Below, one piece after another: positions 4,501-63,502 of a stretch of DNA of 64,000 nt. A model generated the notes under the pieces. That model saw only the letters and a program-made list of their open reading frames with translations, ran no database searches and was not told the origin of the DNA. Source of the DNA: Mermis nigrescens (taxonomy: Eukaryota; Nematoda; Enoplea; Mermithida; Mermithidae); the NCBI GenBank assembly GCA_036768485.1, contig JAVLUZ010000705.1, positions 124,001-188,000 on the forward strand. Reading direction: 5' to 3'. The number at the start of each line of letters is the position of its first letter. The first letter of the stretch is position 1. The position numbers were made by a program, and so were the translations under genes.

Positions 4501-4640
4501 CATAAATGAAACTTTACCATGCAGAATTGTATTACAGTGAACTGTCTACAAACCACTTTTGTAGCTGCTCGCTAGATCGCTGAGAATGGATTCCCATGCA
4601 CAAGGTTTCGTGAAATAGACAAAAGATATGTACTCGTACT
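1538..4640. other. Gene-free stretch
   Basis: AT-rich DNA with no open frame supported by splice sites or recognisable motifs. It includes a short CT microsatellite near 3183-3196. Overlapping frames at 2569-2889 open on both strands and carry no recognisable domain. Confidence 0.6.
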
Positions 4641-4644
4641 CATA

Positions 4645-5044
4645 CATGATCTGGGGGTGGTTTTCACCCCCAGACCTTCCTCCCAGAAAAATTTTCAACC
4701 TCCGCAAAATTTTTTCACTCACCCCCAGAATTGACGATTTTTTGATAGTTCCCAAAAATTTTCTAAAAATTTGTAGAAAAGATGCTTTAAGCGTTTTTAG
4801 CTATCTATTTGCGCAAAAGTGTCAATATCGGCGCCTTGAGCCATTATATTCATGTTTTGACTATATTTTGTTCAATTTGTTCAGACTTTTTTGATTGTTT
4901 TTCGACATTTTTTATGTTTTATGCTCTAGAAAGATAGAGCATCGTCAAAAACGCTGAAAAACGATATTTTTGACGCTTTGGACCCAAAAAAGGCATTTTA
5001 ATTTCACTCCCCCAGAATTCCCATGCTGTGCATGTATGCTCGTA
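4645..5044. repeat. Dispersed repeat family B, near-complete copy
   Basis: About 400 bp. It begins with catgatctgggggtggtttt and ends with cccccagaattcccatgctg followed by tgcatgtatgc. It is internally AT-rich with a conserved 'tctagaaagatagagcatcg' block. Other copies: 12716-13055 (inverted), 50198-50520, 53463-53780, and two copies split by foldback insertions (45398-45574 with 47256-47472; 47940-48255 with 49193-49230). No coding capacity. Confidence 0.8.
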
Positions 5045-6946
5045 ATGTGACCGAAACTTTGTACTCGTTCTTTTAGAATCTACACCCGGCTCGAATAACG
5101 CGCTTGTTACGCTTATTATTGCAAACTATCATTTTATTACGGATTTCTCGTATTTTTGCGTAACTGTGCACTTAACATAAGCTGCAGCCTACATACTACA
5201 TTTTCTTATACGTTTTGATTTAACACGATTTTTCTTATCCAGAACGTGCAAAATCAAACGAGAAGATAATGCAGTGTCTAAATATCCTGCTTTCTTGATG
5301 CATGGCCACGAAAATTGCTTCGGGGATTTCGTTCTCTAATATCACCGATTCTTGTTGCCGCCGTAAAAGTAGGCATACTTTTAGTCACAATTTCGACATA
5401 ATGATCCTTCCGGCCCGGAAATCATTTTGTGTACATGCTTCTCAACCTCATTTGAACCAAAAACTAATCTTTTAGACTAGAAAGTCATTAATTTTGAAGC
5501 CGCTCAAGTAAATGACGATGCTTCAGCTTCCCGCGCACATGATTATTTTCTCATTTAGAAACACGTATGCATAAAGTATTTATGCTTCTCGGTGGTGTTC
5601 CGCTTACTTACAAGCAGCTTTATATTATTAGGCGAGAAGTTGTACAGAAACGATAAAAGATGAAAAATCGCACCTATAACAAGCGTAAGCGAATGTCCCT
5701 CAATCTATTCTTCTGCGACGAAGATCCTACTGGGAAATCGGGAGTTTAAGTATCTAAACCTTATAACTGGCTTTTATTTGCCTGATTAGTTTAAGCAAGA
5801 AAAATCTAATAATGGATTTCCTTGTATGAGAGAAATTGCCAAAATGAAAAGGTACCTACCTACCATAATGAACTACCCGTCTGTATTCCTCGCACGTACC
5901 ATATTGCATTCCTATTTATTACACCGCGTATCAAATAAACGACACACGCGTCCGTTAGCTAGTTTTTCGGCTAACCGATTAGCTAATCGTTTATTTGTTT
6001 GCGCATTTTGTTTTTTCCCTTGAAACCGTCATTTACGTGAATCCGTGCTTCTATTAGCAATACAGTTACAATAGCTTGTTTCATGAGAGGGTGCAAATCC
6101 GTTTTATTCTCATTATTCGCCGTTTAATTGGCCAACTTGAATTGGGTTTTTAGAATGGAGTCTCTCATTTACAAAATGTTATTGCGCGCTTTTTGACCTA
6201 TTATCCCGTTTCACAATGGATATGATTTCTCGAACAATAGGATATAATCAAAGGCAAATAATCTAACGAACTGCGCACATAATGCTCGAATGTACGAAGA
6301 TCCTTGATATTTTGTGCCCGGCGTGTAGCAAGGTTGATTTTTACATATTTCTGCATCACTCGGTTTCCTCTTGATAGGTAATGAGACCTTTCTTACGTAA
6401 AAAAACTCTTGGCGAATTACATTTCTGTGTTTTTCCAAATTTTTGCAATCAATCTTTCCAACTGTGGTCATTAATGTGGCGTGTGTAAAGACGGGACGGG
6501 AATGATGCGCGAAATAAGCTGTTTGCTTATGACTTATAACGTATTTTGCGTAATTATGCATTTCGCTAAATGTTTTGCGTTACCAAATCTTATCGTTTAA
6601 GTTAAATGCGCTTAGCAGAGATTGATTTTGTCATTCCATTGAAAAGATTAACTTTTACCCAATTTTCGTCTGCAGCGTAAATTCTAGTTTTAAAAATGAG
6701 AATAAATATTAAATGACTCCCAAAAAATCTGACTATTAATCAGAATTTAGACGGTGGAGCGAGGAGCGCTGTTTTACATCAATTGATGCGAGGATATAAG
6801 TACCAGACGTGCATGTAGGAAGTTAGGTGATTTATATCCCACAAAGAAATATTATAAGAAAAGGATGAAATTAAGGACAAGAGCTTTTTCAAGCTGAAAT
6901 GGCCTTAAAAGTTATTACAATGCTAAGATATCATAAAAGCTGCCTT
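5045..6946. other. Gene-free stretch
   Basis: AT-rich, no supported exon, no tandem array. Open frames here (for example 6211-6561 on the minus strand) lack splice signals and recognisable motifs. Confidence 0.55.
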
Positions 6947-6958
6947 TACTGATTTCCA

Positions 6959-7128
6959 GGCACGTAGCTCTGGGGGGAATGGGGTTCCGGACCCCCCCCC
7001 TAAAATTCAGAAAAATCGGAAAAATATGACTTTTTAAACGTTGTTTTGTGCTAGTTTTAGCCTTTTTGGGCTTGGTCCCCCCAAAATTGGTGTTGGTCCC
7101 CCCAACATGGGACGGCCAGCTACGTGCC
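6959..7128. mobile_element. 170-bp MITE, family C (GGCACGTAGCT termini)
   Basis: The element starts GGCACGTAGCT and ends AGCTACGTGCC, a perfect 11-bp terminal inverted repeat. It is flanked by the 10-bp direct repeat tactgatttc (6947-6956 and 7129-7138), with two extra bases between the left repeat and the element. The interior has a 'ggggttccggacccccc' block and 'aaaattggtgttggtccccc'. Two further copies lie at equivalent sites in the two arms of the 54-63 kb palindrome. Length, inverted ends and duplication size fit a Mutator-like MITE, which is inference. Confidence 0.85.
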
Positions 7129-7138
7129 TACTGATTTC

Positions 7139-8485
7139 TGGTAAATTTCGAGCACGTAGCAAAAATCTTTTGATTTTAATCTATTTTTAGCCTAAATTTG
7201 AATGTATTATACCCAAAACCTTTTCCATTTAGTTCTTCCATCGACTGCAATGGACGTTTTGTAAGAGTAAGTTTAGGAAAGACTGTCCAGATTCATTAGA
7301 AATTTTTCGTAGATGGGCTTGCAATACAATAGATTTTTTGCCTACACTCGTTAGCTTTTATGCTGGAACTCAATCAATATTTATATCTCTGAAAAAATTC
7401 TTGAAAGCCTGCTGAAAATCTTAAGTAAATTCGTTAGATTTCTTTCACTTTTTTCTTTGAAGCAAAAAGTAAATTAATCTTTAATTAACATCGCCCTCGG
7501 ACGTAATGCCGCGATGAAGATAGATAGTTAATGAAGCAAGGTGGTCTTCGTTCTATTTTGATGCAATTAATTTTGGCTTAAAACCATATGTTTTACTTTA
7601 ATATTTTTGTAAAAAGGACACTATGTGTATTTTATGTGTTAGTATAAGCATGTTGCCGCGCGCTGAAGGCATTTTTAGCTAACATGCGCATGTTTCGATT
7701 GAAGAAGTTTGTTTAAGTCCTGACTTATAAACTTAATTTAGTCAATTTTCGTATATGTGATATCATTAGTTAAACCTTCTTTATCGAATCTAGCTTTCTG
7801 TTAGCATTCGAAATTTTCATGCTTCAAATGACGAACTCAAATGTTCACCTTCTTGCGAACATGATTCTATCCTAAAATCGATGTAAGTTTGTAATTTGGA
7901 AGAAATTTGGTTGAGGAAAACCCTGTCTTTGAACTTAGCTTAAGAGGGCGCAATCAGAAAACGTTGATACTTCCTTCTTCAGTTTACGAACTTCGTCCCA
8001 GATATCTTTTTTTACATTGCAAGCACGTTGATATGCGCTTGCGTATTATTTTCTCTCGGTAACATTCTCCATGTGTACATGGAACTCAGTTTTCAGAGTC
8101 TTTACTGTAATTTAGAATAAAAGGTAGACAAATCGCACTTGCTAGACCTAGACAGTTCCGCGTATCGCAAAGTAATGATTTTGGGTTCTCATGACGCACA
8201 AAGTATTTTTTCTAGAAATTCAATTTTTTCGCCCGCAAAACATATATGCACGAAATCGTTCAGAATAAAATCAACCTAAAGGGGTACTTATTTGCTAAAC
8301 GTAATAATTTAGAATAAACAAAATAATCATTTAATGTTGTGTATTCGAACGAGCTTATTGCGTTTTCTCGAACACATTTTCTGCTCGATAATCCGTCATT
8401 TGCAAAAGATAATTGGTATAGACTTTCGACGGATTGATTTGCTGATTTGATGGATACAAAACATACCGTCCCGAAGTTATTTCTC
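7139..8485. other. Gene-free stretch
   Basis: AT-rich, nothing recognisable on either strand. Confidence 0.55.
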
Positions 8486-8489
8486 TTAA

Positions 8490-9121
8490 GCCTGATTTAT
8501 ACTTCACGCGAACCGCGCCGCAAAGGGGTTTTGCGGCCACAGTATGCCCAAAAATTAGTCAACCCTGCGCGAATATTCTGCGGCAAAATCCGCTTGCCGC
8601 GCCGCGTCGTGCATTTATACTTCACGCGGCGAGCTCGCCGCGTGGACAAAAAAACCAGCGACAAGGTGGCGCCTCACCGCCGCTTCGCAGCCGCTTCGCG
8701 CAATGCCTTTATACTTCTTGCGAAGTGCCGCAGAATATTGCGTAAATCGATACCTCATTAAAATTCAAAATGATTCGACGTCGACACTCGGCTCGAAACC
8801 TCATTAGCATTCGCAAGAGCAATGGGCTTTTTGACTTTTGCGGCGCGGCGAAAAAATGGCCGAAAAAGCTAAAAATAACAATTTTGACTCCTTGCGGCGC
8901 GGCAGAAGTATAAATTGGAAAGCGGCGAAAAAATCTAGACTTTTGCGAATCAGTCCGCGGCGCGGCGGCCGCGTGAAGTATAAATCAAATTGCGGCGGCG
9001 AATAATTCGCCGGCTGCCGCGCCGCAGCTCGAAGTATAAATGGGTTTGCGCGAAATTTCTGCGGCGGCCGTTGCGGCAATTTCTCGCCGCTTCGCTCGCC
9101 GCGTGAAGTATAAATCAGGCT
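8490..9121. mobile_element. GC-rich foldback-like element with GAAGTATAAAT modules
   Basis: The element begins GCCTGATTTATACTTCACGC and ends with the inverse. It is far more GC-rich than its surroundings. The module ATTTATACTTC (or the 10-base core TTTATACTTC) occurs three times in the left half, near 8493, 8613 and 8708. Its reverse complement occurs four times in the right half, near 8907, 8975, 9034 and 9104. Modules are separated by CGCGGCG-type tracts, so the whole element can fold back on itself. It follows a TTAA on the left; the right flank reads TTAT, so a TTAA duplication is possible but imperfect. The element at 11206-12066 has the same architecture. No coding capacity. Confidence 0.75.
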
Positions 9122-38500: not shown

Positions 38501-41500
38501 CAATAGCATCAAAAAATCGCTAAAAAAGCAAAAAAATTTCATAAAATTGAATTACGGGGGTATTTTGATTTCTGGGGAGGGGGTATTCCAACTTCTGGGG
38601 TGCATACCCCCCAGACCCCCACGCCCACGTGTGGTGGGGGAGGGGGTCCCGGCCAGTTTTAGGGGGTAAATGACCCCCACTTCTTGGCCAAAAAAGGCCG
38701 GAAAAACCTATAAACGACCAGAAGATAATTCTTTCCGAAAATCGGCGCAAGGGAGGTCAAAAATCTTCTGGCTTTGGGGGGATGTTCAGGACGACAACTT
38801 TGGGTGGGGATATCCAACCCCCTGTTACATGTATGATTACCCCAACAGTTTGCATTCATTTCAATTATTTTCGATCAATTATAACAGAATTGAAACGATC
38901 TCAAATAAGCAACGATACTGCTATCACAAGCGGGCCATAAAGTTGTAAATGACTCATTTATAATGAGGTCTATAAGTTTTAACACTCAGCTTAATAACGA
39001 AAAGCTCCTTATATCAACCGTTGTGCAAACAACCGCAATCATCGACTTATTACTTTGACGATCAGCTGAGTGGGTAACATAAAAACACACAATGTACTTA
39101 GCTTATAAATAACAATGATCTTTAACACATACAGGCAGTCAGTATTATTAGGGCTTGATTGCATCATCTCATACAAGAAACTTCATTGAAGATAAGTACT
39201 GAAATAGTGCACCAAATTAAGTTCTTCTTTTCCCACATGTAACTTTAAATGTTACAGAAAACATAAAATTCCGTTCTACATGTGTATGCTATGAATTACG
39301 CTAATGAAATGGTGGTCGCTAGGCGCTGGATCATTTTTTTATTTACTAATTTCCTCGAGCTAATATACGAATCGCATGCCGTATTTAGAGTAATAACATA
39401 CAAATATCTCCTCCAAGCGCAACTTGTTATCGCGTAAAAACATGGAAAGCTTCCAATAACAACGCTGGCCAATATACTGCATTAAGAAACTTGAGTGACG
39501 TCATTGAAAAAAGCGATGCAAATTAAGTATAGTATTACATCACAGTGACGCTTTCTGATAAAACGATTCGCGATAAACATGAGAGACTTGATAACGCAAC
39601 GTAACTAACAAGAGGCGTTAGTTAGTAGCTGCTGCGATGAAAAAAATTTTGTACTCTATGTCATTGTCCAGAACTTGTTTTTCACGCAGAATGTGCGGTG
39701 AAATAAGGTAAAGACTAGCAAAGAAAAATGCTCCGATGGAACAAAAAAGATGAATATACTTGGAATTGTGGATTATTATGGATGTAAAAGGAGGGGACTA
39801 GGAAAAATCTACCTAAAGTCGGAAAATCTGCTAAAAATCACACTTTCTCTAAGCAACGCAGAAAATCGATGTATATTCTGCGGCCAACAGATTAAAATAA
39901 ATATTCAACCATAACAATGATTGAAACAGCAGCACGTTAGCTATGCAGTAGCTATGGGAAATGATATTAAGTAAACTAACAGTCTTCCAAGCCAATTGAA
40001 TGAAATAGCAAACATCGAAGACAATTGAAGACATGGTTGGTTTAAAACAGTAGGAAACGCGTAAGTTGACTTGAAACAGACTAAATGTAGATACACTAGC
40101 ATGCCCGAAACGATTGTGTGCACTAATCAATCGGCTCCTGCTTTGCTTGCTATAATGCTCATAACAGAATAAAACAACTTTAAATACAATACCTCTTAGT
40201 TTTCTATCAATCAGGTGCCAGCAATTTAAAAAAGTAACCTTGATAGATTTCGTTTATACACTCTTATCTGAAACTTCGAACATTATTTAAAAAAGACACT
40301 TTTTTAGAGGCCGCAGAATATACATCGATTTTTTGCGTTGCTTAGAGAAAGTGTGATTTTTAGCAGATTTTCCGACTTTAGGTAGATTTTTCCTAGTCCC
40401 CTCCTTTTACATCCATAATAATCCACAATTCCAAGTATATTCATCTTTTTTGTTCCATCGGAGCATTTTTCTTTGCTAGTACACTACTTTTAATTAGCGT
40501 GATTTCAGTACATCAGTCAGTAAACACAATCAGTAACATGCCACAATAATGACAACAGTCCGAGAACGCGGAAAACAATATTGTTCTTAACATCAGCATT
40601 ATCCTTTTTAAACAAGACAACCTTATTGACACCATCCATTTTCAAATTAAAACTCCATTAAGTTATTTCTTCTTAATGTGCAGTTCACTTATAATCAAGC
40701 ACAAATATTTAACCAACGAATTCACATTGCAGATCCTCACTCAATCAATACACAGGCACAATGTGTTGTGACTTTTGAAATTGAAAACACCCAATTTTCA
40801 ATTTTCAAATTGAAAATTGGATCAATTTTCAAATTGAAAATTAAGTCAATTTTCAAATTGAAAATTGGGTGTTTGAATTTGCGATAAAGAAAATAATCAA
40901 AAGATAGTCACTTGGTTTATTTAAGCCGAGTAATAAAATAACGACCGTCCACCAATTCCAAACTAAACGCGACTAATCTGATCACTATGAAAAAGTTTTG
41001 AAAAATGAGCTTGCTAAGCGAGAGTTGTAAACCAAGAGAAACTTAAAGTTAAAACCTAACATCAAGTTATTAAGAGAATTATAAAAGATTTTAAACTTTA
41101 AGAAAATGGAAAAGGCGGGATGTTGGTAAATTAGAAGACAAAGTTTTTCGGCAAAAATTCAAAAACTTCACGCAAATATCAAATGTAAGGAACACTAACG
41201 CTTTGATTTGGTAGTAAAATAAATTTGTAGTATAGACTACATATTAACAACAAATGAATAGTGCAAACTTTACACAACTACTAGGTGTAGAGAATACTAA
41301 CAGTTTACGGCTTATTAATGTACATGATTACAATAAAGCTGCATATCTTTGTCGACTTCTGTTCACAGTAGTGTGATTGCTGGTTCATTTTAAACCACTT
41401 TTGCAGGCAATTTACATCAATTAAACGATAGCTATCCATGTGCAAGATTTTGTGAAACATATTATAAACACGGCTAAGAAGGATTTAACTCTAATGCAAC

Positions 41501-44500: not shown

Positions 44501-47500
44501 GCAGAGATCAGCAGCCATTTCGGGGGTTGAACTACCTAAACCCCCAAGAACACGCATGTAATAAAAAAATGTAGTATTTATTCATCTTAAATTAAAAAAA
44601 AACTTACGCTGTAAGATTCCTTAAAAGCAATAGATTTTTGGTTGACTTTCGCGTGTATGTCGCCCGTTTTCTCATCCAACGTGAAATAATTGTAGTCTCC
44701 GACACTGGCTAACTCGTAACGGATGTTCTGCGAAAATTTATCAAATTTTCGGTCAATTTCGATCGCCTCTACCGAATATAAAATGATGTTACTGATCCAG
44801 TCGCTCTGAAATTTCAAAGCATGCGTTTAAGATGGCTGGATATAAACATGTAATTTCATATTGTTCTGCTAAAATATTATAAAAAATGCACTAATGCGGA
44901 GTTTCTAGTCAATTTAAAGCAGTTTTGCAGAAAACATTTGATTTTCATTCATTTTTGGCTTTGATTCTGCTTCCTCAGAAAATTTTACCCTTTTTCCCAC
45001 CTCTATACACTCCAAATCATGCGAACGCATGTCTGGTCACAACAACTTAATCAATACCTATTTTAATCACTTTGGCATTGATTCATACGAAACTAATTCC
45101 GACATAAATGAATTCCAATTACCGATTATATTAAAATAATCGGATATTAAATTTAAATATCGAAAACGATAATCACTAATATCAACATACTAAAAGAATT
45201 AAAATAGTATTAATTCTGTTGAATGAATAAACGTTTAATTCAGGTACTTCAGTATTACATTAAATGTAAGTTCTGGAAGTTGATTGATCTAGCAGTCTAC
45301 GTAAATAAACCTTTTTACGGGGAAAACGATCCAAAAACGATGTTTTTATGGACATCAAAATATTTAACAGCTGAGAACCATATGCATCATACATTATCTC
45401 AGAGGGTTTGGGGGGTTTTCATCCCCAGAAAGGTTTACATCTGCAGAAACTTTTTCAGCCCCCCAGAATTCGAGATTTTCCTAAAAATATGCTGGTTTAA
45501 GCTGTTTAGCTATCTGCTTACTCAATAGTGTCAGATTTTCGGAGCTTCGCGCCATTTACATACTTATTTTATGATTGTGTTTCAAGAGCCCCACCAGTCC
45601 CAACAGCGCCACCTTCCTAACAGTCCCACCGTCCCAACAGCCCCACCGAAAATCCCAACAGCCCCACCCGTCCCAACAGCCCCACCAGTCCCAACAGCCC
45701 CACCGTCCCAACAGCCCCACCAATAATCCCAACAGCCCCACCAATCCCAACAGCCCCACCGTCCCAACAGCCCCACCATCCCCACAGCCCCACCGTCCCA
45801 ACAGCCCCACCAATAATCTCAACAGCCCCACCCGTCCCAACAGCCCCACCAGTCCCAACAGCCCCACCGTCCCAACAGCCCCACCAATAATCCCAACAGC
45901 CCCACCAATCCCAAGAGCCCCACTAATCCCAACAGCCCCACCGTCCCAACAGCCCCCACCATCCCAACAGCCCCACCGTCCCAACAGCCCCACCGTCCCA
46001 ACAGCCTCACCCGTCCCAACAGCCCCACCGTCCCAACAGCCCCACCAATCCCAACAGCCCCACCTTCCCAACAACCCCACCGTCCCAACAGCCCCACCCA
46101 TCCCAACAGCCCCACCGTCCCAACAGCCCCACTAATCCCAACAGCCCCACCGTCCCAACAGCCCCGCCGTCCCAACAGCCCCACCAATAATCCCAACAGC
46201 CCCTCCGCCCCAACAGCCCCACTAATAATATCAACAGCCCCACCAATTCCAACAACCCCACCAATCCCAGCAGCCCCACCGTCTCAACATCCCCACCATC
46301 CTAACAGCCCCACCGTCCCAAGTCCCAACAGCCCCACCAGCATACGTTGGCAGCAAGCAAATTTTGGGGATGCAAGATTTTTCATAGGTCAAAAAATGGC
46401 CTTAAAAATGGTGGTATGGTGAAGAAAATACCATTTCTGACGGTTCTCATTAAGCACTATCCATTGGAATCAAAAAATTGCTAAAAAACAAAAAAATTTC
46501 AAAAATTGTATTCTGGGGGTATTTTGGTTTTTTTTGGGGAAGGGTTATTTTTGTTTTTTTGGTAGGGGGGTATTTTGGTTTCTCGGGGAAGGGGAGTGCA
46601 CACCCGCCCCCAACCCCCGACGCCTATTGGGGTAAAGTGACCGAGAAATGTGCTGAAAATAGAATTCTGGGGGTCTACCAGAATTTAGGGGATTTCCAGA
46701 ATTTCGGGTTGGGGGGTTAAACTCAAAACATCCCCCCACACTTATGTGTGGCTGGGACAGTGCGACTGTTGCAATGATAGGACTGCTGGAACGGTTGAAC
46801 TGGTGGGATTGGTGGGCTCTTGGGACTGGTGGGGACGGTGGGGCTGTTGGGATGGTGGGGCTTCTAAGATTCGTGGGGCTGTTGGGATTATTGATGGGCT
46901 GTTAGGACGGTGGGGCTGTTGGGACTGGTGTGGCTGTTGGGACGGGTGGGGCTGCTGGGACGGTGGGGCTGTTGGGACGGTGGGGCTGTTGGGATGGTGG
47001 GGGCTGTTGGGACGGTGGGCTGTTGGGATTAGTGGGGCTCTTGAGATTGGTGGGGCTGTTGGGATTATTGGTGGGGCTGTTGGGACGGTGGGGCTGTTGG
47101 GATTTTTGGTGGGGCTGTTGGGACGGTGGGGCTGTTGGGACTGGTGGGGCTTTGGGACGGGTGTGGCTGTTGGGATTTTTGGTGGGGCTGTTGGGACGGT
47201 GGGGCTGTTGGGACGGTGGCGCTGTTGGGACTGGTGGGGCTTTTGAGACTTCACCTATTTTATGACTATACTTGTCTTTTCTTCAATTCATTTGAATTTC
47301 TCCGATATTTTTCGATTTTTTAAATTTTTTTCATTCTAGAAAGATAGAGTATCGTCAGGAATGTCACAAATGATTTTTTGACGTGTATCTACCGTTTTTT
47401 GAGCGAAAAAAACAATTTAAAAAATCTTTTGTTTAACCCCCCCAGAATTTCTATGCTGTGCATATAAGCTGAGATGCGCGATGCAAATAAATAGAATTGT

Positions 47501-54110: not shown

Positions 54111-54116
54111 CATGTG
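54111..54116. other. 6-bp target-site duplication, left (CATGTG)
   Basis: CATGTG directly precedes the element's 5' AG. The same six bases follow the 3' CT at 63497-63502. Confidence 0.85.
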
Positions 54117-54526
54117 AGTAGTTAACCTTGTCTCCCTGGGCTGCAACACAAAGTATAACCAATGCTTAAGCATAGGCTGTGTTAAAGCATAGTCCTGTCT
54201 TGAAGCATAGGCAGTATACGTTGTGTTGCGGTCTAGGGGATGACGTCACACTATAGTTATCCTCAACTATGGGTATACTGGAGACTATTTTAAATTTGCG
54301 GATCAAGTGAACCAGGTATACTTTACACTACAGTAAGAGTACCTATTTAATGCAAGGGGATATACGAAAAATGGGGAAAGCTATCAGAATTTTATTTTTG
54401 GGGGATAACTATGAACACCACTTACCATACTAAATGCGTACAATATTCTAACTTGGGTATCACTTGACCAATTTACGCTTTACAATCGAGTAGTTTACAC
54501 CATATCATAAAACCGCTATAAATCAT

Positions 54527-54960
54527 GAACCAATGGCCGGATTGAGCTGAAATGTTCAGAATGTAAAGAATACATGTCAAAAATATTGTGTATGGAAAAT
54601 CGTGTACCGGCTCACTGTAGCTATGTTATAACACGTATTTTTTGAACCAATGGCCGGATTGAGCTGAAATGTTCAAAATGTAAAGACTACATGCCAAAAA
54701 TAATGTATATGGAAATTCGTGCACCGGCTTACTGTAGCTATGTTATAACACGTATTTTTTGAACCAATGGCCGGATTGAGCTTAAATTTGAGAAACAGCA
54801 TATACGCGAGACACAAATTCTTTGTACATTGTCTTACTGTAGGTATACTGTAGCTTTCTGGATTTTCTATATCTCACAAACTAACAGTCAAATAAAGCTG
54901 AAATTCAATAAATTAGATGTATATGAGTCAAAAATAACGTACGCAAAATATAGTGCATGG
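54527..54960. repeat. 117-bp tandem repeat, left arm
   Basis: Units start gaaccaatggccggattgag at 54527, 54644 and 54761, with a decayed fourth. They contain ttactgtagctatgttataa and acacgtatttttt. The mirrored copy lies at about 62660-63090 in the right arm. Confidence 0.85.
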
Positions 54961-55272
54961 GGTTACTGTAGGTATGCTACAACACGTATCTTTTAATTCG
55001 CCGAGCTGGAAATTTGAGAGATTTAACAAATACGATAGAACAGTGCACCAGAACTACTATAAGCAACATTTAGTAACCCATAGTGTGGAAAAGGTGGTTG
55101 TGAAAAAGGTTACAAAGGGTCCACAGTCTCGCACAGATCTCCCCCAACCCAAAGCTAGAGGATCACTCTGTAGACTGCAGATCTTTTGTATGAACACACT
55201 GAAAACGTGCATAATACTTAATAAGATTATGAGACAATAAAACATGAAGATACGGGTTTAACGAAAAAAATC

Positions 55273-55555
55273 AGATATATTTTGTAAGATTTGGGAATTA
55301 TTTTGTAAAATTTGGAAACTTTTTTGTAAAATTTGGAAATTATTTTGTAGAATTTGGAAATTATTTTGTAAAATTTGGAAACTTTTTTGTAAAATTTGGA
55401 AACTTTTTTGTAAAATTTGGAAATTATTTTGTAGAATTTGGAAACTTTTTTGTAAAATTTGGAAATTTTTTTGTAAAATTTGGAAACTTTTTTGTAAAAT
55501 TTGGAAACTTTTTTGTAAAAAATGGAAATTATTTTGTAAAATTCGGAAATTTAAA
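55273..55555. repeat. 21-bp tandem array, left arm
   Basis: About 13 units of ttttgtaaaatttggaaact plus one base. Because the unit is a multiple of three, long heptad-like frames (for example repeated FCKIWKL) open through it. Confidence 0.9.
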
Positions 55556-55564
55556 AGAAACAAA

Positions 55565-55689
55565 AGTTTGACTACCGTGGAGACCCATGAGTCAAATTTT
55601 GATGGGTCCCCTCGCCAGTGGACCAGATATTCGGTCTTATTACGTCGTCTCCGCGTTTTTAGATTGCTGATTATCAATAGCCTGCTCAA
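55565..55689 (-). pseudogene. Chromodomain fragment of a Polinton-type integrase, left arm
   Basis: Minus-strand frame reading SNLKTRRRRNKTEYLVHWRG then DPSKFDSWVS, a chromodomain core with the YLVHW...FDSW arrangement seen at the C-terminus of Polinton-type integrases. The rest of an integrase is absent upstream and the frame runs into the 21-bp array downstream. The right-arm copy is at 61850-61963. Confidence 0.6.
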
Positions 55690-55906
55690 TATACGGACAA
55701 AGTTCGCTCGGTTCTACCGGAAATCATGAGAATGAAATTGGGGCTTTCTATATAGGAGGCATAAAATGCCTCTATAAATGATCAACGAAATTTCGAATAG
55801 TAATTATATAAGTTGGATATCGCATTGTCTTGATCTCTCCTGGCATACCCATTGTTAGCTGGAGGAAAAAAAATTCATAGTTCGATATGTTTCTATGTAT
55901 TCTGCA

Positions 55907-56068
55907 GGCACGTAGCTGACCCTTCTATTTTGGGGGACCAACACCAATTTTGGGGTGGGGGGTCTAAGCCAAAAATAGCACAAAATAACGTGTAAAAAGT
56001 CCTATTTTTCCGTTTTTTTCTGAATTTTGGGGGGTCCGGACCCCGCCAGCCCCCCAACAGCTACGTGC
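55907..56068. mobile_element. Family C MITE inside the left arm
   Basis: Starts ggcacgtagctgaccc and ends caacagctacgtgc. The direct repeat gtattctg flanks it (55897-55904 and 56072-56079). It sits at the same relative site as the right-arm copy. Confidence 0.85.
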
Positions 56069-56249
56069 ATGGTATTCTGTAGTGTATGCAAGAAAAAGGA
56101 CGAAAGGTCCACAGTCTTCCAACAGATCTCCCCAAACCCTAAGCCAGAGGATCACTCAGTAGACTGCAGAACTTTTGTATGAAAACTAAGAAAACGTGCA
56201 TAATACTTAACAAGATTATGAGACAATAAAAAATGAAAATATGGGTTTA

Positions 56250-56328
56250 ACCAAAAATGAATAAAACAGCCTATTGCATCGTTCGGCAACCAAAAATGAA
56301 TAAAACAGCCTATTGCATCGTTCGGCTA
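56250..56328. repeat. 39-bp direct duplication
   Basis: Two adjacent copies of a unit starting aaccaaaaatgaataaaaca and ending gcatcgttcggc; mirrored at about 61200-61277. Confidence 0.85.
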
Positions 56329-56563
56329 AGTACTAAACTGGACGCATAAGTGTCAGGAGGGGTCTAGACCCTCCCAGCTTAATTAGAACTCAAAATTTTC
56401 CCTACGGATTCTTGAAAATTTAAGAGAAAGTTTCAAAGTTGATCAATCATACTAAGTGACCATAATTTATACTGATGGTTGCAAAAACGATATATTTCAT
56501 AGAAAAATACTAGACCTACCTAGGCACTGCTCTCTCAGTGTGTAGCAAATGTAAATGATAATT

Positions 56564-57861
56564 TTACCAGATAAAAAGCACAACTTTACAGGCATCAATA
56601 TTGCGCAATGTTATACAATTTGAAGATGAAAAATGAATTTCAGTCCATAACGGATTCAAGAACGCGGGCGATGATTCAAGGGCGTAATAATTAACTTTCG
56701 AAAACAAAGTTTCCACGAATTGTTCAAATCGATTGCGATTTATATATCCTAAATCGTAATGACGAAATATAACTGTACAAGTCTGACGACGATCAGTAAA
56801 TATATCAATTAAATCCATAAGGCTTCCGAAAAAATTGTCATCATGATTCGAACAGACGAACCATATAGATAAAACTTCAAAGCGTTTGGCATCATAGAAA
56901 AAACTTCGAACCGCGTGTTTATCGCTATCGAAAAAACCCAAACTTCTTATACACAGTTCGCGCGGATTAAAATACTTTAAAATGCGGTAAAAGTCCATAT
57001 CTAAATCGATTGAATGCAGACACAATTTTTGCAGCAAATGACGATACGAAGGTATCCAAGAATCACTAAATAAAGTTACTAGTTTCAATTCGACCGTCTT
57101 TTGGTTGCAATCGTCCATCAGATAGGGCTCGAGGATTTCGCCACCCCAGTATTCCATAATTCGCATGTTTCGTAACACCAATTTCGATGGGTTGCATACC
57201 TTAAGTATCTTCTTCAACAGCCGATTCTCTTCGCCACTAAGATAGATCGTTGCAAGCTGCTTGTATATGTTTATTTCGATGGTAGGATCGCCTTAAGAGA
57301 AAAAGTACCAAAAATAAATTATATGTATGAAAAAGAGTGATACCAACGATAAAAAACTAATAAATTAGTCATAAATAAATGGTTTACATTTATTTTTATT
57401 GTATATTCTTATTTGTTTCCATGCACATATATTATTTTCATACAAGCAAAACATGACATGGGTGCATACCCTGTAAAGGCTGCAAATGAGGGTCGTGTGT
57501 TGGATTTCCAGGGTTTTACTGGATGGCCCATTGCTCAAATGTTGCGCCGTAAAAATCGCTGACAAAAACCGTGATTGCCAAATGTGTTGCAACGGGCCAT
57601 CGTTGCTGACGCTCCAAAATTTTCCGCCAATCCTTGCATACACGCTCAATGCGCATACGGCTGGTAAAGTCGAGGTAACTGAATATTTGTGCGTGCAGTT
57701 CGGACGGTAGACTGTCGAATGTTGCTGAAAATTCACATGGAATCAGAAATAAATGAATACAGTGCGTATTGCATCACAAATATTATATTTGAATAAATTT
57801 ACATATAGATATCTATATAAATTTGCATACCTAAACTAACGCTGTCGTTCGTGTAATCCAT
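56564..57861 (-). pseudogene. F-box protein gene, left-arm copy with a nonsense codon
   Basis: Exons 57861-57831, 57724-57470 and 57291-56564 correspond one to one with the right-arm gene. In exon 2 the codon for Tyr80 (TAC on the right) is TAA (57516-57518), which truncates the product just after the F-box. Exon 3 is otherwise open. It has several amino-acid differences from the right copy (for example Ile for Val in DFYRxLKYF) and a 10-bp deletion near the end that replaces the last residues with ACKVVLFIW. Transcription would run outward towards the cadherin exon, on the cadherin coding strand. A truncated F-box product is possible. Confidence 0.85.
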
Positions 57862-58363
57862 GATAAAAATGATAATTTAGAGAGCAAAACTATCCAACCG
57901 ACCAAACAGCTCAAGACACAAAGTCCTGAGTGATATTTTTCATTTCGTTGTGCCTTATATACCCTGTTTTTCAACTTCTCTTACACTCTCTCGCCTTATT
58001 GGTGCTGGCAAAAAGCCAATTCTAAGATGTCATACATTGTACATTTTAATTTTTCCTCTATTCCTACCTTATATACCCCCTTTTTTATCCCTCTTACACC
58101 CTCTTTTCTTATTGATGCCGGCAAAAAGCCATTTTTATGATGCTTTCACCTGCAAAAGTTTCAAATTAGGTAACAGTTTTTTGCTTCTTTCGTATAATTG
58201 ATTTGCCCCAGAATACCCAGTCTTGCTATTATAATACAAGTTTTTCAATGTTCTATCCATTTTGGTTATATTAAATTAACCTAATAACAATACTTATAGA
58301 TGAATGAGCAGGATTTTTTATCTTATTTTTTTGGGGGGGAGGATTTATATTTCGTTTATTTTT

Positions 58364-58726
58364 TTAGGTTTTATATTTTTTAATCATAAATAATACTTTA
58401 TAATTCAATTTTTCCTTTTCTTTCTCCAAATCTTGGGCTATATATCGCCTTATAACGCTGTTCCCCGCATCCTGAGACGCTCGGTTATATTCTATACATC
58501 TTGGACACATTTGTACAGTAAAATATGTACGTCCTGAATTTGTTTCAAAACAATCTTTTTCCGAACTGGCTCTTTGACAATAAAAACATAATTGAATCAT
58601 GAGAGGAAACATCGGCCGTTCTAAGTTTCGCCCACAAAGAGCTATTGGCGGTCTAATCGACCTGCCATACGGCTTCCTTCCCTCATCACCAAATGGACGT
58701 TTCTTTATTTCATTCACTTCCTCCAT
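58364..58726 (-). CDS. 120-residue zinc-ribbon-like protein
   Basis: Intronless ORF in the core. It has a basic N-terminal third (KRPFGDEGRKPYGRS), then C47-x2-C50 (CFYC) and C74-x2-C77 (CPRC) spaced like a zinc ribbon, with an additional Cys59 in the loop. A charged helical C-terminus rich in Lys and Glu follows (AQDLEKEKEKLNYK). Zinc ribbons of this spacing occur in transcription factors such as TFIIB and TFIIS and in viral late transcription factors; no specific family is recognised. The gene lies 40 bp downstream of the TBP-like ORF on the same strand, so the two may be co-expressed. A role in transcription is inference from pattern and neighbour. Confidence 0.65.
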   Translation of the reverse strand: MEEVNEIKKRPFGDEGRKPYGRSIRPPIALCGRNLERPMFPLMIQLCFYCQRASSEKDCFETNSGRTYFTVQMCPRCIEYNRASQDAGNSVIRRYIAQDLEKEKEKLNYKVLFMIKKYKT

Positions 58727-58766
58727 CTTTGAAAGGATTCATATTATTTAGGAAAAGTATTCATAT

Positions 58767-59324
58767 TTATAGACTTTTGCCTACATATTTACTCTGAGTC
58801 ACCAGATCGTTTATTAATAGATTTGCTCGAATGAGATTACGCCTAGTTTTAGCACCAGTAAGAATAATTTTTCCAGATGTATAAATTAGAGCTGTTACAC
58901 CAAAATTGTTAAGCCGATAGGTGAGAGCTGGGAATAACTCTGGTTCGTAAAGGCTGTATTTCCTATTCCGATAATAAAACTTTGTTAGATCAATTTGAAA
59001 CGGAACACTGAAAGAGCCTACAAAGTTATTGATTTTGACAGCTACATGATGCGCTATATTAAAACCTAAACTTTTTAAAATTTCTTGGATTTTTCTGACC
59101 GCTTTTTCCACTTCTTCTTCCGTTTTTGCGCCTAAACATACCATTTTGCCCGATTTAAATAACAATACCGTTATTTTTGGTTCTTTTAATTTTAAACTTA
59201 AACCTGGAAACCGACCCGGCTTATACTTGATCCGATCAATGTTTTTCTCTGCTATTAAAGATAAATTTAATTTACATCTCAAATTCGCCGACCCAATAAT
59301 ATTACAAACGATTAAACCTGCCAT
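58767..59324 (-). CDS. Divergent TATA-binding protein (TBP core, two repeats)
   Basis: 185-residue intronless ORF that covers the saddle-shaped TBP core and almost nothing else. Repeat 1 spans about residues 4-88: NIIGSANLRCKL, then YKPGRFPGLSLKLKEPKI, LLFKSGKMVCLGAK and IQEILKSLGF. Repeat 2 spans about 94-175: INNFVGSFSVPF, then YEPELFPALTYRL and LIYTSGKIILTGAK. Of the four phenylalanines that kink TATA DNA, three are kept (Phe39, Phe56, Phe131) and the fourth is Tyr148. Asn8 and Asn100, at the central minor-groove contacts, are kept. One Thr of the paired TGAK motifs is Leu64 (LGAK); the other is kept (Thr156). It should act in the nucleus at promoters. Cellular TBP usually has a variable N-terminal extension; this one has none. 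The start is the only ATG before the core. Confidence 0.87.
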   Translation of the reverse strand: MAGLIVCNIIGSANLRCKLNLSLIAEKNIDRIKYKPGRFPGLSLKLKEPKITVLLFKSGKMVCLGAKTEEEVEKAVRKIQEILKSLGFNIAHHVAVKINNFVGSFSVPFQIDLTKFYYRNRKYSLYEPELFPALTYRLNNFGVTALIYTSGKIILTGAKTRRNLIRANLLINDLVTQSKYVGKSL

Positions 59325-59384
59325 CCTTTAGGACATAAAACTGTCACACTGATTAAAATGCATATTGCGTAGCATCATAAAAAT

Positions 59385-59555
59385 GGCTTTTTGCCGGCAT
59401 CAATAAGAAAAGGGGGTGTAAGAGGGATAAAAAAGGGGGTATATAAGGTAGGAATAGAGGAAAAATTAAAATGTACAATGTATGACATCTTAGAATTGGC
59501 TTTTTGCCAGCACCAATAAGGCGAGAGAGTGTAAGAGAAGTTGAAAAACAGGGTA
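59385..59555 (+). promoter_or_regulatory. Duplicated TATA module upstream of the intact F-box gene
   Basis: Two tandem copies, about 113 bp apart, of a module that begins ggctttttgcc, continues with caataag and gtgtaagag, and ends TATATAAGG (59440-59448 and 59544-59552). The second TATA box is about 100 bp before the start codon at 59654. A mirrored pair precedes the left copy, at 57963-58131. Confidence 0.65.
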
Positions 59556-59653
59556 TATAAGGCACAACGAAATGAAAAATATCACTCAGGACTTTGTGTC
59601 TTGAGCTGTTTGGTCGGTTGGATAGTTTTGCTCTCTAAATTATTATTTTTATC

Positions 59654-60939
59654 ATGGATTACACGAACGACAGCGTTAGTTTAGGTATGCAAATTTATAT
59701 AGATATCTATATGTAAATTTATTCAAATATAATATTTGTGATGCAATACGCACTGTATTCATTTATTTCTGATTCCATGTGAATTTTCAGCAACATTCGA
59801 CAGTCTACCGTCCGAACTGCACGCACAAATATTCAGTTACCTCGACTTTACCAGCCGTATGCGCATTGAGCGTGTATGCAAGGATTGGCGGAAAATTTTG
59901 GAGCGTCAGCAACGATGGCCCGTTGCAACACATTTGGCAATCACGGTTTTTGTCAGCGATTTTTACGGCGCAACATTTGAGCAATGGGCCATCCAGTACA
60001 ACCCTGGAAATCCAACACACGACCCTCATTTGCAGCCTTTACAGGGTATGCACCCATGTCATGTTTTGCTTGTATGAAAATAATATATGTGCATGGAAAC
60101 AAATAAGAATATACAATAAAAATAAATGTAAACCATTTATTTATGACTAATTTATTAGTTTTTTATCGTTGGTATCACTCTTTTTCATACATATAATTTA
60201 TTTTTGGTACTTTTTCTCTTAAGGCGATCCTACCATCGAAATAAACATATACAAGCAGCTTGCAACGATCTATCTTAGTGGCGAAGAGAATCGGCTGTTG
60301 AAGAAGATACTTAAGGTATGCAACCCATCGAAATTGGTGTTACGAAACATGCGAATTATGGAATACTGGGGTGGCGAAATCCTCGAGCCCTATCTGATGG
60401 ACGATTGCAACCAAAAGACGGTCGAATTGAAACTAGTAACTTTATTTAGTGATTCTTGGATACCTTCGTATCGTCATTTGCTGCAAAAATTGTGTCTGCA
60501 TTCAATCGATTTAGATATGGACTTTTACCGCGTTTTAAAGTATTTTAATCCGCGCGAACTGTGTATAAGAAGTTTGGGTTTTTTCGATAGCGATAAACAC
60601 GCGGTTCGAAGTTTTTTCTATGATGCCAAACGCCTTGAAGTTTTATCTATATGGTTCGTCTGTTCGAATCATGATGACAATTTTTTCGGAAGCCTTATCG
60701 ATTTAATTGATATATTTACTGATCGTCGTCAGACTTGTACAGTTATATTTCGTCATTACGATTTAGGATATATAAATCGCAATCGATTTGAACAATTCGT
60801 GGAAACTTTGTTTTCGAAAGTTAATTATTACGCCCTTGAATCATCGCCCGCGTTCTTGTATCCGTTATGGACTAAAATTCATTTTTCATCTTCAAATTGT
60901 ATAACATTGCGCAATATTGATGATTTTGAAATCCTGTAA
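59654..60939 (+). CDS. F-box protein, intact right-arm copy (three exons)
   Basis: Exons 59654-59684, 59791-60045 and 60224-60939 join in phase with GT/AG introns to give 333 codons. The F-box is at residues 14-53: SLPSELHAQIFSYLDF, then RMRIERVCKDWRKIL, with the conserved Leu-Pro start and Trp near the end. F-boxes bind Skp1 in SCF ubiquitin ligases. The remaining 280 residues should bind a substrate; the segment LCLHSIDLDMDFYRVLKYF and following lines resemble the irregular leucine-containing C-termini of many invertebrate F-box proteins but show no named domain. The gene is transcribed outward from the element core. Carriage inside the mobile arm suggests capture from a host, which is inference. 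Confidence 0.88.
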
Positions 60940-61457
60940 AGTTGTGCTTTTTATCTGGTAAAATTATCATTTACATTTGCTACACACTGAGAGAGCAGTG
61001 CCTAGGTAGGTTTAGTATTTTTCTATGAAATATATCGTATTTGCAACCATCAGTATAAATTATGGTCACTTAGTATGATTGATCAACTTTGAAACTTTCT
61101 CTTAAATTTTCAAGAATCCGTAGGGAAAATTTTGAGTTCTAATTAAGCTGGGAGGGTCTAGACCCCTCCTGACACTTATGCGTCCAGTTTAGTACTTAGC
61201 CGAACGATGCAATAGGCTGTTTTATTCATTTTTGGTTGCCGAACGATGCAATAGGCTGTTTTATTCATTTTTGGTTAAACCCATATTTTCATTTTTTATT
61301 GTCTCATAATCTTGTTAAGTATTATGCACGTTTTCTTAGTTTTCATACAAAAGTTCTGCAGTCTACTGAGTGATCCTCTGGCTTAGGGTTTGGGGAGATC
61401 TGTTGGAAGACTGTGGACCTTTCGTCCTTTTTTCTTGCATACACTACAGAATACCAT

Positions 61458-61621
61458 GCACGTAGCTGTTGGGGGACTGGCGGGGTCCGGACCCCCCAAA
61501 ATTCAGAAAAAAAACGGAAAAATAGGACTTTTTACACGTTATTTTGTGCTATTTTTTGGCTTAGACCCCCCACCCCAAAATTGGTGTTGGTCCCCCAAAA
61601 TAGAAGGGTCAGCTACGTGCC
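61458..61621. mobile_element. Family C MITE inside the right arm
   Basis: Starts gcacgtagctgttggggg and ends gtcagctacgtgcc, at the mirror position of 55907-56068. Same flanking sequence (cagaatac and cagaatac). Confidence 0.85.
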
Positions 61622-61849
61622 TGCAGAATACATAGAAACATATCGAACTATGAATTTTTTTCCTCCAGCTAACAATGGGTATGCCAGGAGAGATCAAGAC
61701 AATGCGATATCCAACTTATATAATTACTATTCGAAATTTCGTTGATCATTTATAGAGGCATTTTATGCCTCCTATATAGAAAGCCCCAATTTCATTCTCA
61801 TGATTTCCGGTAGAACCGAGCGAACTTTGTCCGTATATTGAGCAGGCTA

Positions 61850-61963
61850 TTGATAATCAGCAATCTAAAAACGCGGAGACGACGTAATAAGACCGAATAT
61901 CTGGTCCACTGGCGAGGGGACCCATCAAAATTTGACTCATGGGTTTCCACGGTAGTCAAACTT
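61850..61963 (+). pseudogene. Chromodomain fragment of a Polinton-type integrase, right arm
   Basis: Mirror of 55565-55689, reading NLKTRRRRNKTEYLVHWRGD and PSKFDSWVS. The upstream frame is closed by a stop (cgg tag) about 40 bases before, so the integrase body is missing. Confidence 0.6.
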
Positions 61964-61979
61964 TTGTTTCTTTTAAATT

Positions 61980-62335
61980 TCCGAATTTTACAAAATAATT
62001 TCCATTTTTTACAAAAAAGTTTCCAAATTTTACAAAAAAGTTTCCAAATTTTACAAAAAAATTTCCAAATTTTACAAAAAAGTTTCCAAATTCTACAAAA
62101 TAATTTCCAAATTTTACAAAAAAGTTTCCAAATTCTACAAAACACCTATACTTAACCATATAAAAAAGTTTCCAAATTTTACAAAATAATTTCCAAATTT
62201 TACAAAAAAGTTTCCAAATTTTACCAAAAAGTTTCCAAATTTTACAAAATAATTTCCAAATTCTACAAAATAATTTCCAAATTTTACAAAAAAGTTTCCA
62301 AATTTTACAAAATAATTTCCAAATCTTACAAAATA
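61980..62335. repeat. 21-bp tandem array, right arm
   Basis: About 16 units of the inverse of the left-arm unit (agtttccaaattttacaaaa), several more than on the left. Confidence 0.9.
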
Positions 62336-62659
62336 TATCTGATTTTTTTCGTTAAACCCGTATCTTCATGTTTTATTGTCTCATAATCTTATTAAGTATT
62401 ATGCACGTTTTCAGTGTGTTCATACAAAAGATCTGCAGTCTACAGAGTGATCCTCTAGCTTTGGGATGGGGGAGATCTGTGCGAGACTGTGGACCCTTTG
62501 TAACCTTTTTCACAACCACCTTTTCCACACTATGGGTTACTAAATGTTGCTTATAGTAGTTATGGTGCACTGTTCTATCGTATTTGTTAAATCTCTCAAA
62601 TTTCCAGCTCGGCGAATTAAAAGATACGTGTTGTAGCATACCTACAGTAACCCCATGCA

Positions 62660-63090
62660 CTATATTTTGCGTACGTTATTTTTGACTCATATACATCTAA
62701 TTTATTGAATTTCAGCTTTATTTGACTATTAGTTTGTGAGATATAGAAAATCCAGAAAGCTACAGTATACCTACAGTAAGACAATGTTCAAAGAATTTGT
62801 GTCTCGCGTATATGCTGTTTCTCAAATTTAAGCTCAATCCGGCCATTGGTTCAAAAAATACGTGTTATAACATAGCTACAGTAAGCCGGTGCACGAATTT
62901 CCATATACATTATTTTTGGCATGTAGTCTTTACATTCTGAACATTTCGGCTCAATCCGGCCATTGCTTCAAAAAATACGTGTTATAACATAGCTACAGTA
63001 AGCCGGTACACGATTTTCCATACACAATATTTTTGACATGTATTCTTTACATTCTGAACATTTCAGCTCAATCCGGCCATTGGTTCATGA
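62660..63090. repeat. 117-bp tandem repeat, right arm
   Basis: Mirror of 54527-54960, with cattgcttc in place of cattggttc in one unit. Confidence 0.85.
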
Positions 63091-63496
63091 TTTATAGCGG
63101 TTTTATGATATGGTGTAAACTACTCGAGTGTAAAGTGTAAAGTGGTCAAGTGATACCCAAGTTAGAATATTGTACGCATTTAGTATGGTAAGTGGTGTTC
63201 ATAGTTATCCCCCCAAAAATAAAATTCTGATAGCTTCCCCCATTTTTCGTATATGCCCCTGCATTAAATAGGTACTCTTGCTGTAGTGTAAAGTATACCC
63301 GGTTCACTTGATCCGCAAATTTAAAATAGTCTCCAGTATACCCATAGTTGAGGATAACTATAGTGTGACGTCATCCCCTAGACCGCAACACAACGTATAC
63401 TGCCTATGCTTCAACACAGGGCTATGCTTCAACATAGCTTATGCTTAAGCATTAGCTATACTTTGTGTTGCAGCCCAGGAGACAAGGTTAACTACT

Positions 63497-63502
63497 CATG
63501 TG
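63497..63502. other. 6-bp target-site duplication, right (CATGTG)
   Basis: Directly follows the terminal GGTTAACTACT and matches 54111-54116 exactly. Confidence 0.85.

Follow-up and report, generated by a model that had tools for sequence, protein, structure and literature searches.

Palindromic Polinton-type elements carrying F-box and TATA-binding protein genes in the nematode Mermis nigrescens: probable snap-back derivatives of integrase-bearing relatives

Polintons (Mavericks) have AG...CT ends and 6-bp target-site duplications, normally with much shorter terminal repeats than the element described here, and typically carry a PolB/integrase/capsid gene set. In adenoviruses and poxviruses, whose genomes are linear DNA, snap-back or end-duplicated defective genomes are found in which one end is replaced by the inverted other end, whereas foldback elements and deletion derivatives similar to miniature inverted-repeat transposable elements (MITE-like elements) have long inverted repeats and are presumably mobilised in trans. 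Here we analyse a 64,000-nt stretch of the genome of M. nigrescens (GenBank assembly GCA_036768485.1, contig JAVLUZ010000705.1, positions 124,001–188,000 of the forward strand; hereafter the window), which contains a palindromic element with a gene for a TATA-binding protein (TBP) in its core and an F-box gene in each of its two arms. The element shares its ends and 6-bp duplications with Polintons, and its relatives carry an rve-type integrase with a C-terminal chromodomain, a Pox_A32-like ATPase and a Peptidase_C5 (adenovirus-type) protease. It differs from them in that no full integrase (only ∼ 40 codons and a chromodomain tail), no A32-type ATPase, no adenovirus-type protease and no PolB were found in it, its arms make up 87% of its length and it carries TBP and F-box genes. 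As in the defective viral genomes, an inverted duplicate of one end appears to stand in place of the other, but in this genome the products occur integrated, in many copies and between target-site duplications; unlike foldback and MITE-like elements, the family has Polinton ends, 6-bp duplications and genes in both core and arms. It is highly probable, in our view, that the element arose by snap-back from a Polinton/Maverick-type parent, is non-autonomous and has spread in trans.

DNA virus-like elements with their own TBP have been described, in that TBP is reported for 59% of mirusvirus genomes (PMC10132985); our TBP tree showed no phylogenetic tie between these and the TBP of the window, and none of its rows was identified as a mirusvirus TBP. 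In PMC10675990 and PMC10132985, the TBPs mentioned alongside polintons are those of mirusviruses or of elements in which no Polinton capsid or polymerase is recognised, and searches of openly licensed papers turned up no Polinton with a TBP or F-box gene. The M. nigrescens genome paper, which gives an assembly of 524,220,005 bp in 867 scaffolds, never mentions Maverick or Polinton in its main text (PMC10989877), 6.5 Mb of polintons are given for Romanomermis culicivorax (PMC10879605), and an earlier study of nematode polinton polymerases is cited in PMC11071308.

The palindromic element occupies positions 54117–63496 (9,380 bp) and is enclosed by a perfect 6-bp duplication, so that the span 54111–63502 comprises the element and both copies of CATGTG. 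Its termini, AGTAGTTAACC and GGTTAACTACT, are exact inverses of each other. The features of the element are as follows.

54111–54116, no strand: left target-site duplication CATGTG (direct reading)
54117–58144, plus strand: left inverted arm, 4,028 bp (aligned to the right arm)
54117–55663, plus strand: outer left arm, the terminal repeat common to the integrase/ATPase/protease-bearing relatives L035 (BLASTN, 91% over 1.6 kb) and L044 (93–97% in pieces)
55280–55552, plus strand: 21-bp tandem array, 13.0 copies (Tandem Repeats Finder, TRF)
55579–55686, minus strand: remnant of the integrase C-terminal chromodomain, same frame as the right-arm remnant; its DNA matches the ends of the L044 and L037 integrases at 88–90%
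56564–57861, minus strand: F-box gene, left copy, three exons, premature stop at codon 80
58140–58144, no strand: fold-back joint with the 5-bp microhomology AGCAT (minus strand), from L045–L049 compared with L053 and with their own natural arm/TBP side
58140–58260, minus strand: start of the integrase gene, first ∼ 40 codons, cut at the joint; continuous with the rve + Chromo frame of L053 and with the corresponding frames of L052 and L056
58145–59370: unique core, 1,226 bp
58364–58726, minus strand: gene for a protein with two CxxC motifs, 120 aa, in the core; metagenomic relatives
58767–59324, minus strand: TBP gene, 185 aa, single open frame, in the core; Pfam TBP 3.4e-50
59371–63496, minus strand: right inverted arm, 4,126 bp (aligned to the left arm)
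59654–60939, plus strand: F-box gene, right copy, exons 59654–59684, 59791–60045 and 60224–60939, 333 aa, open (spliced by eye)
61841–61948, plus strand: chromodomain remnant, Chromo E 3.5e-5 at 24.1 bits, slightly below the 25.1-bit cut-off; chromodomains in PDB from 8.6e-5
61864–63496, minus strand: outer right arm, same terminal repeat as in L035/L044 (BLASTN against L035)
61975–62333, minus strand: 21-bp tandem array, 17.0 copies (TRF)
63497–63502, no strand: right target-site duplication CATGTG (direct reading)

The palindromic structure is real. Direct reading and alignment of the arms, which differ by 37 mismatches and 8 indels (the biggest, of 86 bp, within the 21-bp tandem array), bear out the palindrome, inverse ends, CATGTG duplication, arms of about 4 kb and 1.2-kb core of the original prediction, which was made from the sequence alone. 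Other places in the genome also contain these ends, arms and core, and seven of the nine insertions read at both ends lie between perfect 6-bp duplications, so that the structure is beyond chance; the predicted Polinton-type ends are upheld as well. The mismatches between the arms are clustered (binomial P 2e-7), as the outermost 600 bp of the 4,028-bp arm account for 19 of the 37: the arm ends (54117–54716 and 62897–63496) differ by ∼ 3% (19 in 600 bp) and the remainder by ∼ 0.5% (18 in 3,428 bp). This unevenness seems to need exchange of terminal repeats or older differences.

Among the 12 core-bearing loci that were fetched with 1.5 kb on either side (L045–L056, the window's own included), F-box sequence flanks the core on both sides in nine and on one side in three. 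L052, L053 and L056 are non-palindromic and have the order F-box, TBP, CxxC protein, integrase (rve + chromodomain) and a further open reading frame (ORF), with the F-box gene at this end pointing outward (only its exons 1–2 are seen in L052). The integrase frames measured between stops comprise 356, 356 and 346 codons, respectively, and are 65–66% identical to the integrase of L044; that of L053 matches rve at 5.3e-14 and Chromo at 2.5e-8. The last part of the window core corresponds to the first ∼ 40 codons of this integrase and is followed by the inverted F-box end. In this joint A the change from integrase sequence to inverted arm takes place at AGCAT, a motif present in both parental sequences, as found in five of five class A copies (L045–L049). 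The remaining four loci (class B: L050, L051, L054 and L055) have a second joint that lies elsewhere on both sides; its overlap relative to L053 is 3 bp in L050 and L051, and in L054/L055, which are mirror images within contig C20, no overlap was found by script and 8 bp by eye against the integrase start retained in L045. Fold-back happened at more than one breakpoint. On contig C20, between ∼ 50,800 and 128,000, the core, F-box and joint matches form one large mirror image, which is either an inverted duplication or an assembly fold.

A 221-bp query across the window joint returned 42 rows, of which 19 span the joint at 83–100% identity (18 places if the C20 pair is taken as one) and 20 have their start on the edge of the microhomology (position 96), the pattern expected of unrearranged integrase genes. 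The remainder consists of one short extra and two pieces of contig C848, where two facing F-box arms enclose a short remnant of the integrase start, with no TBP and no CxxC gene between them; here the class A form has been reduced still more. The original prediction had the terminal repeats expanding to nearly the whole element; the arms are not the product of simple expansion, however, as the element has a fold-back joint inside an integrase gene. The F-box gene thus comes from one end of a longer parent, and the inversion doubled it.

Relatives with the same ends tie the element to the Polintons. L044 has the same left end and carries an rve + Chromo integrase, a Pox_A32-like ATPase (2.9e-5), a Peptidase_C5 protease (6.1e-5), further ORFs and the gene for the CxxC protein, but had no match to queries with TBP, F-box or PolB. 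A 386-aa ORF of L044 has no Pfam match and hits in PDB only a caspase chain at E 0.041, and its other ORFs are without a convincing Pfam match. The right repeat is truncated, with the outer ∼ 490 bp missing and no end within the next 659 bases, and positions 2317–8938 of the locus represent a Polinton-like element of ∼ 10 kb between the shared repeats, in which no PolB was found. The 31-kb region L035–L038 resembles L044 with other insertions inside it; we had taken it for one long element and now read it as an L044-like element split by these insertions. The Polinton tie follows from the ends, the 6-bp duplications, the integrase, the A32-like ATPase and the adenovirus-type protease. Sharing its ends with L044 and L035–L038 and lacking their genes, the window element is, as predicted, a derivative and not an autonomous member of the group, since it keeps so little of the integrase gene.

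The assembly searched comprises 523,963,438 bp in 860 contigs, and all copy counts are lower bounds, as 40 candidates were scored for each query. The terminal 390 bp gave at least 44 matches (441 candidates), the core at least 44 (386 candidates) and the F-box stretch at least 42 (82 candidates), so that the further copies foreseen by the original prediction do exist. For the 29 core matches that reach 684 bp or more, F-box matches from this search lie within 3 kb on both sides in 10, on one side in 11 and on neither in eight; the both-sided cases are undercounted because only 40 F-box candidates were scored, and several of the one-sided or F-box-less core matches do span the fold-back joint in the joint query. 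Perfect duplications flank three core-bearing palindromes (CATGTG in the window, TTAGCT in L030 and ATCGTT in L048) and four gene-poor ones (ATGGGG in L029, CCCCTT in L031, GGCGTG in L032 and CCTCTC in L039); of the other two insertions with both flanks read, L033/L034 has GGCGTA versus GGCGAA (5/6) and L035/L038 is unmatched. L049 has CATGTA on the right, and its left end lies outside the 401 bases fetched. The L030 insertion sits in a frame that by eye looks like reverse transcriptase (its left piece has no Pfam match) and the L031 insertion inside the gene block of a different Polinton-like element. A diverged F-box copy (L041:3134–4408; 40–43% protein identity by tblastn) adjoins the same terminal repeat, and the F-box gene for this reason seems old in the lineage.

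The gene-poor palindromes (L029, L031, L032, L033/L034, L039, L040, L042 and L043) form a second family, which has the same outer repeat and a shared inner arm different from that of the window. This inner arm is up to 2.19 kb long, with 93–99.8% identity per match (mostly at least 96%), and no gene was identified in its short ORFs, the only ones examined. In the seven loci with comparable arms, these end at ∼ 480, 1,930–1,940 or 2,175–2,190 bp of the shared sequence. The three end points may represent separate fold-backs, although later deletions can also account for them, most likely in L029. The existence of a gene-poor family with the same ends suggests that fold-back is a habit of the lineage.

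From these comparisons the following course of events may be proposed. The parent lineage would have carried an outward F-box gene, followed by genes for TBP, the CxxC protein and the integrase and by one or more additional ORFs, in the order seen in three loci, with a terminal repeat outside the F-box gene, as suggested by the window, L030 and L041. A replication or repair strand extending as far as the integrase start would switch, at a microhomology of a few bases, to the F-box end of that element in inverted orientation, and a duplicate of the F-box end would take the place of everything beyond the integrase start; the joint points to this replacement, and template switching is its putative cause. 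Because such a product carries two Polinton ends, an integrase acting in trans can insert it: intact relatives would supply the enzyme, and palindromes have been inserted at new sites with 6-bp duplications.

Several observations weigh against this derivation, among them the damaged F-box, TBP and CxxC genes and the high pN/pS values within classes that are described below. The core tree places class B on a single supported branch (95/99) and does not unite class A, and the non-palindromic loci are grouped only weakly (61/92), so that the direction from parent to palindrome rests on the joint and not on the tree. The L035/L038 flanks do not match (ATCATT versus AACATA). The original prediction also called for a full-length relative with PolB and integrase: integrase-bearing relatives share either the termini (L044, L035–L038) or the F-box/TBP/CxxC block (L052, L053 and L056), but none with PolB was found, and six PolB ORFs used as tblastn queries had no match in 27 loci, L044 included, a search that did not extend to the other half of the parent or to the outer ends of L052, L053 and L056. 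PolB_2 (PF03175) has at least 168 matches in the genome (80 of 1,062 candidates scored), none of them tied to these ends, and L044-like elements may depend on the abundant PolB-bearing elements. One PolB match on contig C828, ∼ 13 kb from a core copy, was considered as part of a full element and dropped, as the 3 kb read there had no terminal repeat and the core copy spans the joint. The PolB_2 matches include groups of equal score and frame length across different contigs, which suggests recent Polinton activity.

The carried genes agree with the F-box arms and transcription-factor core that had been predicted. The TBP match to Pfam consists of two stretches, i.e. two TBP repeats along the protein, and solved TBPs are matched from 7.5e-40 over residues 6–167. 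There are 135 relatives at E ≤ 0.001, with 28–46% identity among the 120 listed; in a tree of 61 rows the window protein sits on a long branch. The right F-box protein, in our by-eye splice model, matches F-box-like at 1.9e-10 and F-box at 3.6e-9 near its N-terminus (residues 13–53), and had no relative at E ≤ 0.001 among 867 candidates in the protein search. A gene is thus present in each arm, as predicted, but the left copy is interrupted. The CxxC protein has nine relatives among 12 candidates (61–72% identity, 108–121 aa), which are annotated as 'hypothetical protein' at most, share 32 invariant columns in the family alignment and are otherwise seen solely on short metagenomic contigs (up to 4,282 bp). 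No relative was found among viral contigs searched with the TBP, the CxxC protein, the CxxC alignment and the element terminus, or among genome contigs searched with the CxxC alignment; a predicted CxxC structure was poor (mean predicted local distance difference test score, pLDDT, 62.2) and was set aside unused. Judging from the domains and low pN/pS (ratios of non-synonymous to synonymous differences per site), the TBP and CxxC proteins probably steer transcription of the element's genes, and the F-box protein probably recruits the host Skp1–Cullin–F-box (SCF) ubiquitin ligase as an adaptor.

It is possible, if rather doubtful, that the palindromes go further and are Polinton satellites, arising repeatedly by fold-back and parasitic or defective-interfering-like in nature, with a transcription switch and a ubiquitin-ligase adaptor of their own. 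They would have shed the integrase and everything after it, kept the TBP and CxxC genes whole and doubled the F-box gene; against this stand C848, which has lost the TBP and CxxC genes, and the many broken F-box copies. Indels occur in 9 of 16 copies of F-box exon 3 and stops in 6 of 16; in exon 2 the counts are 2 and 3 of 20, one of the stops being in the non-palindromic L053. Some of these indels may be sequencing errors.

Less likely still, the TBP, CxxC and F-box genes would be mere passengers without a role in the life of the element. Apart from the losses just named, this is favoured by the stop in the left window F-box gene and the differences between left and right copies (1 synonymous, 8 non-synonymous), but the right copy differs from that of L030 by 16 synonymous and 4 non-synonymous changes, no TBP stop is present in any of the 12 loci and the CxxC protein is conserved in its metagenomic relatives. 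Across the 12 loci, pN/pS ranges from 0.11 (CxxC, 66 pairs) through 0.20 (TBP, 66 pairs) and 0.21 (F-box exon 3, 115 pairs) to 0.28 (F-box exon 2, 181 pairs), the pairs not being independent. Within class A the values are 0.25 (TBP), 0.23 (CxxC) and 0.31 (exon 3), and within class B (L050, L051 and L054; L055 omitted as a duplicate) 0.06 for CxxC and 0.27 for exon 3 with few changes. On the other side of the scale are, again with few changes, exon 2 in class A (0.77) and TBP and exon 2 in class B (1.15 and 1.64), so that selection in the palindromic form is only suggested, as well as 1-bp deletions in the TBP gene of L054/L055 and the CxxC gene of L047. The genes were thus constrained in the mobile lineage as a whole.

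There is little to recommend a distinct palindromic transposon family that shares only its ends with Polintons, its arms having grown gradually by gene conversion and its genes being its own. The inner arms are indeed more alike than the outer ends in the window, L030 and L039, but the core stops, at a microhomology, partway through an integrase frame whose remainder is present in L052, L053 and L056, the 20 joint-query rows end exactly at the joint edge and the breakpoints vary between copies. That fold-back reads or mis-joined haplotypes mimic the palindromes is scarcely credible: the assembly is nanopore-based and the C20 mirror image is possibly such a fold, but between the window arms there are 37 mismatched sites and 8 indels, the five loci with joint A lie on separate contigs or at separate places and three core-bearing palindromes lie between perfect 6-bp duplications.

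Two other repeats were noted in the window. An inverted repeat at 39714–40480, with 172-bp arms that are 99% complementary and 423 bp between them, is perhaps a small fold-back element, and positions 45556–47254 contain densely packed minisatellites with units of ∼ 17–18 bp and several open frames on both strands.

With the snap-back derivation as the preferred reading, the family documents how integrating virus-like elements have undergone snap-back rearrangement in an animal, an insect-parasitic nematode, with joints, unrearranged relatives and descendants coexisting in one genome. It also directs attention to Polinton-type elements equipped with a TBP gene of their own. Fold-back joints report on how Polintons replicate their ends, and both this question and whether deleted virus-like elements turn into satellites become testable from sequence.

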